From positions 1-48,504 of the forward strand of contig JAUIID010000010.1 in NCBI GenBank assembly GCA_030431615.1: DNA of 48,504 nt, read 5' to 3'. The translations under genes and the position numbers were made by a program. Each line of letters begins with the position of its first letter. The stretch's first letter is position 1. The stretch is from Alphaproteobacteria bacterium. GTDB taxonomy: Bacteria; Pseudomonadota; Alphaproteobacteria; Geminicoccales; Geminicoccaceae. The notes under the pieces are model-generated. The model had not been told where the DNA came from, searched no databases, and saw nothing but the letters and a program-made list of their open reading frames with translations. Of the stretch, positions 28,348 to 30,179 are shown piece by piece.

Positions 28348-29691
28348 TCAGAGCGCCTGCTCGAGCCAGGCGGCCGTGGCGAGCAGCCTCGCGTCCTCGC
28401 TGTGCCGCCCGACCAGCTGCACGCCGAGCGGCATGCCGCTCGGCCCGGATCGGAGCGGCAAAGAAACGGCCGGGGTACCGAGCAGCGACCAGAGCGTGCA
28501 GAAGCCGGGGCTGCCGGTTGAGCCGAGCCCGACCGGCGCCTCGCCGGCGGCGGCCGGGGTGAGGATGGCGTCGAACCGCTCGAAGAGCGGCAGGATGGCA
28601 GCCTGCAGGCGGCGTCGCTCCGCCAGGGCGGCGAGATAGGAGCCGGCCTCGAGGCGCTGGCCCCACTCCACCATGTCCCTGAGCCCGTCGCTCAGGCCGC
28701 CCGGATGCGCCGCGTGCAGGTCCGCGAGCTCATGCGCCAGCTCGGCCCAGGAGATGCGCTGGTGAACGTCCTTCGCCGCCTCGAACCCCGCCGGCAGCGC
28801 TGCCCGGTCGACCACGCCCGGCAGCGCCTGCGCGATCTGCGCGAAGACGGCGAGAGTGGAGGGCTCGGGCGTTTCCCAGGCGAAGCCGTCGATCAGGGCG
28901 AGGCGCGGCGCCGAGGTCCGTCCGGCGAGCGCTGCGGCGACCAGGGGAGGGGTCGCCCGCGGGCGCATCGCAGGGTCGGTGCCGTCATGGCCGGCCAGCA
29001 CCTCGACCAGCAGGGCCACGTCGGCGAGGCGCCGGGCGAAGACGCCGACATGGTCCACCGTTGGCGATTGCAGCGTCATGCCTCGCCGGCTGATCAGGCC
29101 GAACGAGGGCTTGAAGCCATGCACGCCGCAATAGCTCGCCGGCCGGATGACCGAGCCGTTGGTCTGGGAGCCGATCGCCAGCGGCACCATGCCGGCCGCC
29201 ACGGCGGCGGCGGAGCCCGAGGACGAGCCCCCGGGCGTGCGGTTCGGATCGTTGGGATTGCGCGTCGGCCCGGGCGTGAAGGCGGCGAACTCGGTGGTCA
29301 CGGTCTTGCCGAGCAGCACAGCACCTGCCGCCCTGAGCCGCTCGGCCACCGCCGAATCGGTCGCCGGCTGCCGCCCGGCATGCAGCACCGTGCCGTTCGC
29401 CGTCGGCATGTCCGCCGTGTCGAAGATGTCCTTCACGCCGACCGGCACCCCGAAGAGCCGCCCGCACGCCCCACGCGCCGCTGCCTCGTCCATCCGTGCC
29501 CGGGCCTGTTGCCGGCCATAGGCCGGGTCGATGAAGGCCCAGGCCCGAAGCTCGCTCTCGCGCTCGGCGACGATGGCGAGGCAGGCTTCGGTCAGCCGGT
29601 CGACGCCGAGGCGACCCTCGGCGATGCGGGCTGCCGCGGTTGTGGCATCCAGCCGGGCCGGCGAATCCGTGGCGAGGCTCTGGTCGGACAT
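28348..29691 (-). CDS. Amidase-signature family hydrolase
   Basis: A 447-residue amidase of the GatA/AtzF-type amidase signature family. The catalytic triad is visible: Lys87 (GVPVGVKDIF), the cis-Ser in GGSSSGS (Ser156) and the nucleophile Ser180 (GSQTNGSVIRPAS). HGFKPSFGLISRRGMTLQSPT and the C-terminal GTPAVSLPLRSGPSGMPLGVQLVG complete the fold. The ATG at 29691 is the natural start. It has no GatB or GatC neighbours, so it is a stand-alone amide hydrolase, substrate unknown. Upstream lie the palindrome array (29781-29925) and direct repeats, which may regulate it. Confidence 0.93.
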   Translation of the reverse strand: MSDQSLATDSPARLDATTAAARIAEGRLGVDRLTEACLAIVAERESELRAWAFIDPAYGRQQARARMDEAAARGACGRLFGVPVGVKDIFDTADMPTANGTVLHAGRQPATDSAVAERLRAAGAVLLGKTVTTEFAAFTPGPTRNPNDPNRTPGGSSSGSAAAVAAGMVPLAIGSQTNGSVIRPASYCGVHGFKPSFGLISRRGMTLQSPTVDHVGVFARRLADVALLVEVLAGHDGTDPAMRPRATPPLVAAALAGRTSAPRLALIDGFAWETPEPSTLAVFAQIAQALPGVVDRAALPAGFEAAKDVHQRISWAELAHELADLHAAHPGGLSDGLRDMVEWGQRLEAGSYLAALAERRRLQAAILPLFERFDAILTPAAAGEAPVGLGSTGSPGFCTLWSLLGTPAVSLPLRSGPSGMPLGVQLVGRHSEDARLLATAAWLEQAL

Positions 29692-29780: not shown

Positions 29781-29925
29781 TGTCGCGTTTCCTGCGACAA
29801 CGCGCTCGGGTTGTCGCGTTATATGCGACAGTTGACGCTCAGCTGTCGCATTATACGCGACAGTTGCCATCAGGGTGTCGCGTATAACGCGACAGTTTTC
29901 CCGCCCTGTCGCATATTCCGCGACA
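29781..29925. repeat. Five evenly spaced 19-bp palindromes, TGTCGC-N7-GCGACA
   Basis: Five sites start at 29781, 29812, 29844, 29876 and 29907, so the spacing is 31, 32, 32 and 31 bp, three turns of DNA each. All have perfect TGTCGC and GCGACA arms around seven AT-leaning bases (GTTTCCT, GTTATAT, ATTATAC, GTATAAC, ATATTCC). Four of the five continue with GTT. All would present the same face of the helix, as expected for cooperative binding of a dimeric protein. The array starts 90 bp upstream of the amidase start codon. Operator array or transposon-end binding sites are the two main readings. Confidence 0.9.
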
Positions 29926-29930
29926 GTTCG

Positions 29931-30027
29931 CGACGAACGAACCTGCGAAATCGACGAACGAACCCGCGGATTCGACGAGCGAACCCGGCGAATCGACGAA
30001 CGAACCCAGGCTTCCGCAAACGAACCC
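29931..30027. repeat. 21-bp tandem direct repeats (four full, one partial)
   Basis: Units begin at 29931, 29952, 29973 and 29994, with the conserved core CGACGAACGAACCC followed by seven variable bases; a partial fifth (ACGAACCC) ends at 30027 after a 20-bp step. A stray CGAACGAACC is at 30118-30127. The 21-bp period equals two helical turns. The array begins 5 bp after the last palindrome. Such iteron-like repeats bind initiators or regulators; no such protein is encoded next to it. Confidence 0.85.
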
Positions 30028-30179
30028 GGGGGTCGATAACCCATTGTCTGCGTAGGGAAATTTGGCTCTGATGTGGTTCACGCCACCGGGCGAGCAAATC
30101 CGAAAAGGCGAATTTGCCGAACGAACCGGAGCCCTTGCTTTCCCGGCCATTCTGTGATAGGAATAAAGTCGGAAGATGC
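30028..30179. other. Rest of the amidase-GGDEF intergenic region
   Basis: About 150 bases without a gene, downstream of the stop of the minus-strand GGDEF-EAL gene. They contain one isolated copy of the direct-repeat core at 30118-30127. No T-tailed hairpin that would end the GGDEF-EAL transcript was seen, so its mRNA may run into the repeat arrays. Confidence 0.4.

Follow-up and report, generated by a model that had tools for sequence, protein, structure and literature searches.

Five palindromes with the arms TGTCGC and GCGACA stand at a regular pitch upstream of an amidase gene in the window, i.e., the whole stretch of 48,504 nucleotides analyzed here. The question raised by this locus is whether such an array is an operator tied to the adjoining gene or an end of a Tn7/Tn5053-type transposon, the two options considered in the earlier note, or a part of something else.

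The array in the window and its surroundings

The coordinates of the five exact palindromes (dyads) and their spacings of 31, 32, 32 and 31 bp were all reproduced, as was the GTT reported to follow four of them, which comes after sites 2–5, with ACG after site 1. From base composition, about 0.006 exact sites would be expected in the window, and no further exact TGTCGC-N7-GCGACA was found in the rest of it. Loose sites with up to three mismatches numbered 42 vs. 53.5 expected, which is at or below chance; therefore, the significance is limited to the exact array. The array is one part of a composite non-coding unit of up to ~445 bp, to which a second array, a lone site and a promoter-like end also belong, all three missing from the earlier note. 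The parts of this copy and its neighboring genes are as follows:

28348–29691, minus strand: left neighbor, amidase (PF01425, E 2.5e-83), with its start codon 90 bp from the first dyad
29781–29925, no strand assigned: five 19-bp dyads TGTCGC-N7-GCGACA (29781–29799, 29812–29830, 29844–29862, 29876–29894 and 29907–29925) at a pitch of 31/32/32/31 bp, about three helical turns
29932–30029, plus strand: five direct CGACGAACGAACCC-like repeats at a 21-bp pitch, two helical turns, with cores at 29935, 29956, 29977, 29998 and 30019, the last one reading GCAAACGAACCC; conserved in two congeners
30116–30127, plus strand: lone GCCGAACGAACC site, directly upstream of the promoter-like end
30135–30163, plus strand: outward sigma70-type promoter-like end, TTGCTT-N17-TAGGAA
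30180–33491, minus strand: right neighbor, HAMP/PAS/GGDEF/EAL protein (Pfam), with its stop codon ~17 bp past the promoter-like end

The promoter-like end of this copy is a weak, degenerate form of the family promoter described below and points toward the convergent GGDEF/EAL gene from its 3′ side.

Copy number, dispersal and signs of mobility

The genome-wide search for TGTCGC-N7-GCGACA proposed in the earlier note was run on the own genome (5.33 Mb in 314 contigs) and returned 169 exact sites vs. none for the reversed-pattern control, with about 0.6 expected by composition. These form at least 37 arrays of about five sites (36 including the window, plus one on contig C302). Roughly 30 immediate neighbors were surveyed, with gene calls checked by Pfam, and they are functionally unrelated: peptidase S49, MatE, glutamine synthetase, lactate dehydrogenase, TauE, isochorismatase, RACo and others. 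Functionally related targets downstream of the arrays, as one regulon would have, were not found in this survey. The position of the array, 90 bp ahead of the amidase start, is what speaks for an ordinary operator of that gene or of one regulon, albeit the other arrays adjoin unrelated genes, the promoter is directed away from the amidase, and the amidase and EAL loci of the congeners carry no array. A private amidase operator is refuted by these three observations, the amidase is not a conserved partner of the element, and we give next to no credence to the operator option in its wider form.

The copies share more than the dyads. Indeed, the loci L049 and L055 have 87% identity over positions −84 to +360, counted from the first dyad, with unrelated flanks on both sides, and the pairs L049/L057, L066/L067, L059/L069 and L053/L063 behave similarly. 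The element has been copied as a discrete unit into unrelated intergenic sites, as are Correia and MITE-like repeats, and judging by these alignments its copies seem to move or convert as a unit. The element is probably mobile. Terminal inverted repeats were not found, the left end (a 17-mer) being different from the right end (TAGGNTATAATNCCTA), and no target-site duplications were seen at 12 junctions. No transposase genes occur among the roughly 30 Pfam-named immediate neighbors; a profile search for PF09299 (TnsB/TniA) gave no match, the control searches being likewise empty. Single arrays without an inverted partner occur on contigs as long as 77 kb. Where two arrays are paired, those on contigs C218 and C239 have the same orientation and those on C296 have their promoter ends facing each other.

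These results bear on the second option of the earlier note. The end of a Tn7/Tn5053-type transposon would account for multiple phased sites starting with TGT, for an end adjoining gene stop codons, and for low-GC cargo on one side, including GmrSD and AAA genes. However, no inverted partner array was present on any contig examined, no transposase adjoins the arrays among the neighbors sampled, the sites are full dyads rather than directly repeated transposase sites, and a promoter and other arrays lie inside. Hence we consider a transposon end very improbable.

Anatomy of the element family

Once the copies were oriented by the second array, the order of the modules from left to right was constant: an outer 17-mer (in about 15 copies), the five dyads, the CGACGAACGAACCC repeats (about five per copy at a 21-bp pitch), ~100 bp of variable DNA, the lone GCCGAACGAACCC site and the promoter. 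The 17-mer CATMASGAWTCSTKATG is followed by the first dyad after ~82 bp, and in the same copies the 17-mer recurs 164 bp further on, between the third and the fourth dyad. It is nearly element-specific, with 28 of 29 matches inside elements in the 0.6 Mb searched, mostly at −82 and +82; the window copy has neither 17-mer. The dyad pitch is 32/32/32/31 in 23 of the 38 arrays compared, the window differing in the first interval.

The family promoter, TTGAC/TTGC-N17-TATAAT, is of an outward sigma70 type and set in TAGGNTATAATNCCTA. As a sequence pattern, the spacing of 17 bp between the −35 and −10 boxes is kept in 47 of 50 instances. Upstream of the −35 box, the start of the lone site is mostly at a distance of ~19–26 bp; in a few copies the distance is 28–33 bp, longer by about one turn of the helix. 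Boxes 17 bp apart with an activator-like site placed by helical turns are, on the level of sequence, the pattern of an activator-dependent sigma70 promoter.

Several copies deviate from the common plan. In L049 (9200–9550), L055 (12950–13260) and L057 (9800–9900), half of the GAACGAACC repeats are inverted, and these three apparently represent one variant lineage. The copies L066 (9752–9907) and L067 (9750–9905) have in common an altered dyad pitch, with a 42-bp gap at the outer end; they are 14 kb apart on one contig and 81% identical, with low-GC DNA beside both.

Occurrence in relatives and change of the dyad

Exact sites were searched for in 59 related genomes, of which at most eight had one or two chance sites, and arrays of exact dyads were present in none. 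The GAACGAACC array was recovered from 3 of 31 family genomes, all three of the own genus, and among 385 genomes of the class only from the own genome, the congeners not being in that draw. The element family is restricted to one genus. All modules of the unit recur in the congeners G001 and G002 (the same 17-mers ~164 bp apart, five sites at a pitch of 31–32 bp, the repeats at 21 bp, the lone site, the promoter), and its dyad differs, reading TGMGTC-N7-GACGCA or similar. At two apparently orthologous positions, the 3′ ends of the MatE gene (L080_13612 and L096) and of the peptidase S49 (SppA) gene (L049_9544 and L099), each species has its own dyad type. From these comparisons, the dyad sequence has changed across the whole element set between species. 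The element is absent from the 3′ end of the GGDEF/EAL gene in both congeners and also at the right neighbor of L080_837. The shared MatE and SppA positions, together with the element-free EAL and L080_837 sites, imply that some positions are old and others have been gained or lost.

In several congener copies (left flanks of L099, L102, L107 and L092), a strong GGGGAGGCGCTGCCTCCCC-type hairpin adjoins the outer 17-mer and may be either a host terminator or a part of the element.

Beyond the genus, the search of genome contigs yielded only two carriers of the same element, L024 (2701–2846) and L025 (353–435), and an unrelated repeat. The two contigs belong to MAGs labeled as Chloroflexia (JAUIIK010000209.1) and Myxococcales (JAGQIT010000410.1); since each is the sole carrier of the element in its MAG, both are probably misbinned. 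The unrelated repeat, a tandem hairpin unit of 31–32 bp (GGAGTGTCGCCTTCAAGGCGACATGACGGAGC), lies at the ends of contigs of Akkermansia-labeled MAGs (L023, L026 and L027). No similar array was found in viral contigs, nor a similar element in plasmids or phages, and the literature searched contained no match to the motif and no similar element.

Constraint on the putative binding sites

Both arms are exact in 160 of 179 dyads, whereas the 13-bp spacers between dyads are on average only 39% alike. Perfect arms next to free spacers indicate that selection or gene conversion acts on the putative binding sites. The seven central bases are statistically dyad-symmetric as well (G/A 105/55 at one end, C/T 104/56 at the other), which would suit recognition of the DNA by a dimer. 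An RNA hairpin was also considered and rejected, because the core bases are dyad-symmetric and the arms in the congeners are not perfectly complementary; a search of Rfam gave only two microRNA-family matches, far below the gathering scores. The earlier note had proposed a phased, cooperative, high-occupancy protein-binding site. The symmetric cores, the fixed pitch of 31/32 bp, the difference between arms and spacers and the species-level switch of the dyad all lend support to such a site.

Orientation, replication and foreign DNA

The GC skew at four-fold sites, taken in the orientation of the element and controlled for gene strand, was negative for 28 of 37 copies (z-scores below −2 in 19 and above +2 in 2; sign-flip p = 1e-5). 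If the leading strand is G-rich, as usual, the promoter would face the incoming fork. The two sides of the element also differ in what lies beyond them: low-GC bins of 500 bp made up 35 of 261 on the dyad side vs. 1 of 258 on the promoter side. Low-GC loci on the dyad side were noted at L072 (11538–14218), L063 (5617–7566), L066 (10126–12993) and L075 (10748–14077); genes in such DNA include a GmrSD-type endonuclease, AlbA_2, AAA_21, a NifS/DndA-like aminotransferase and trypsin-like proteases, and they look like acquired defense or cargo DNA.

On the other side, 17 of 37 promoters (and 7 of 17 in the congeners) have a convergent gene whose stop codon lies no more than 45 bp ahead. The former count is above the per-base null (0.126) and marginal against the per-region null (0.319, p = 0.05), which weakens the first impression that a convergent stop codon adjoins almost every promoter. 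The predicted transcript would often run antisense into the 3′ end of the neighboring gene.

Such polarity raises the possibility of an element that organizes the chromosome or orients forks, i.e., a polar nucleoprotein structure pausing or guiding replication or segregation, with the promoter toward the fork. It would explain the skew and the dispersal over the genome with irrelevant neighbors. However, the leading strand follows here only from the usual G-rich rule, there is no gene-strand bias to support it, and the origin and terminus could not be placed because the assembly is in 314 contigs. A bias of insertion would give the same pattern, and a fork-orienting element has no need for a promoter. 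On balance, it is an improbable explanation.

Orientation bias with replication is also expected for mobile elements using the single-stranded lagging-strand template, such as IS608 (PMC6006769), and thus for a selfish miniature element, a non-autonomous repeat moved in trans whose arrays would be sites of the enzyme or an accessory protein and whose promoter would be incidental. Its copying as a discrete unit between unrelated flanks, its intergenic copies, its absence from the orthologous EAL and L080_837 sites of the congeners and the foreign genes on one side all agree with this. Nevertheless, neither terminal inverted repeats nor, at the 12 junctions, target-site duplications were found, the Pfam-named neighbors included no transposase, and selfish spread does not require that the arms remain exact at loci common to congeners or that an activator-like site stands whole turns from a promoter. 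A selfish element is therefore unlikely, albeit a serious alternative.

Comparison with known systems

MalT/CRP-type enhanceosomes are multi-site activator promoters, each a single regulatory region of a defined operon. The element resembles them in its helically phased arrays, predicted to serve different proteins, upstream of a sigma70 promoter, and departs from them in being portable, with at least 37 copies beside unrelated genes. In Neisseria, the Correia repeat enclosed elements (CREE) have inverted repeats at their termini around a conserved core (PMC2649163). In common with CREE, the element has many intergenic copies, a promoter at an end, a protein-binding site inside (predicted here) and positions mostly common to close genomes with some differences (PMC2649163). 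Unlike CREE, it has no inverted termini, three or four phased arrays, a promoter on one end only and a dyad changing between species. REPINs, in which short REP hairpins form inverted doublets, are tied to RAYT genes, and REP/BIME/REPIN elements are thought to be copied in trans (PMC3116915, PMC2817692), with REP-related enzymes using lagging-strand DNA (PMC6006769). More than 100 extragenic palindromes in regular composite units are a shared trait (PMC3116915, PMC2817692), whereas five dyads of the same pitch, direct repeats and a promoter differ from inverted doublets. Moreover, the dyad arms of the congeners are no longer perfectly complementary, so a hairpin is not what is kept. Correia elements and REPINs are the closest described kinds, and the inverted structures defining them were not found here.

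Proposed function and meaning for the genus

With a probability of about one half, the array in the window is one copy of a dispersed, genus-specific, non-coding promoter-enhancer cassette, portable and activator-controlled, of up to ~445 bp. This reading takes the architecture, copy number, discrete copying, site constraint, dyad change and replication-linked orientation bias as observed; we infer that binding proteins exist and act on the promoter of the element. All five dyads, facing the same side of the helix, would be occupied by a dimeric protein. A second protein would bind the GAACGAACC array (five repeats at a 21-bp pitch) and also the lone copy beside the −35 box, from where it would activate the outward sigma70 promoter. 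The two 17-mers, 164 bp from each other in about 15 copies, would be bound by a third dimer. Activation of the outward promoter by proteins assembled on the arrays is favored by that promoter itself and by the spacing of the lone site in whole turns. Discrete copying, polarity and one-sided foreign DNA suggest mobility or some link with replication; these are not mutually exclusive. Some points count against the cassette. In about half of the copies the promoter stands at a convergent stop codon, so that no sense product is evident; the window copy has a degenerate promoter and lacks the 17-mers; and a plain promoter cassette does not predict the replication-linked orientation.

Somewhat more tentatively, we suggest a new class of polar, replication-oriented nucleoprotein cassettes at dozens of loci, whose main DNA-binding protein may have changed its specificity within the genus with all sites changing in step, and which may mark the border of foreign-gene insertion. 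Dispersed bacterial repeats are usually short and simple; this element has a full promoter together with as many as four kinds of phased sites, and its grammar is kept in two congeners with different letters. If confirmed, it would be a natural record of how a regulator and its multi-site targets, at least 37 of them, changed in concert. Moreover, with its replication-linked orientation and one-sided foreign genes, the placement of mobile cargo in the genome would become directly testable.
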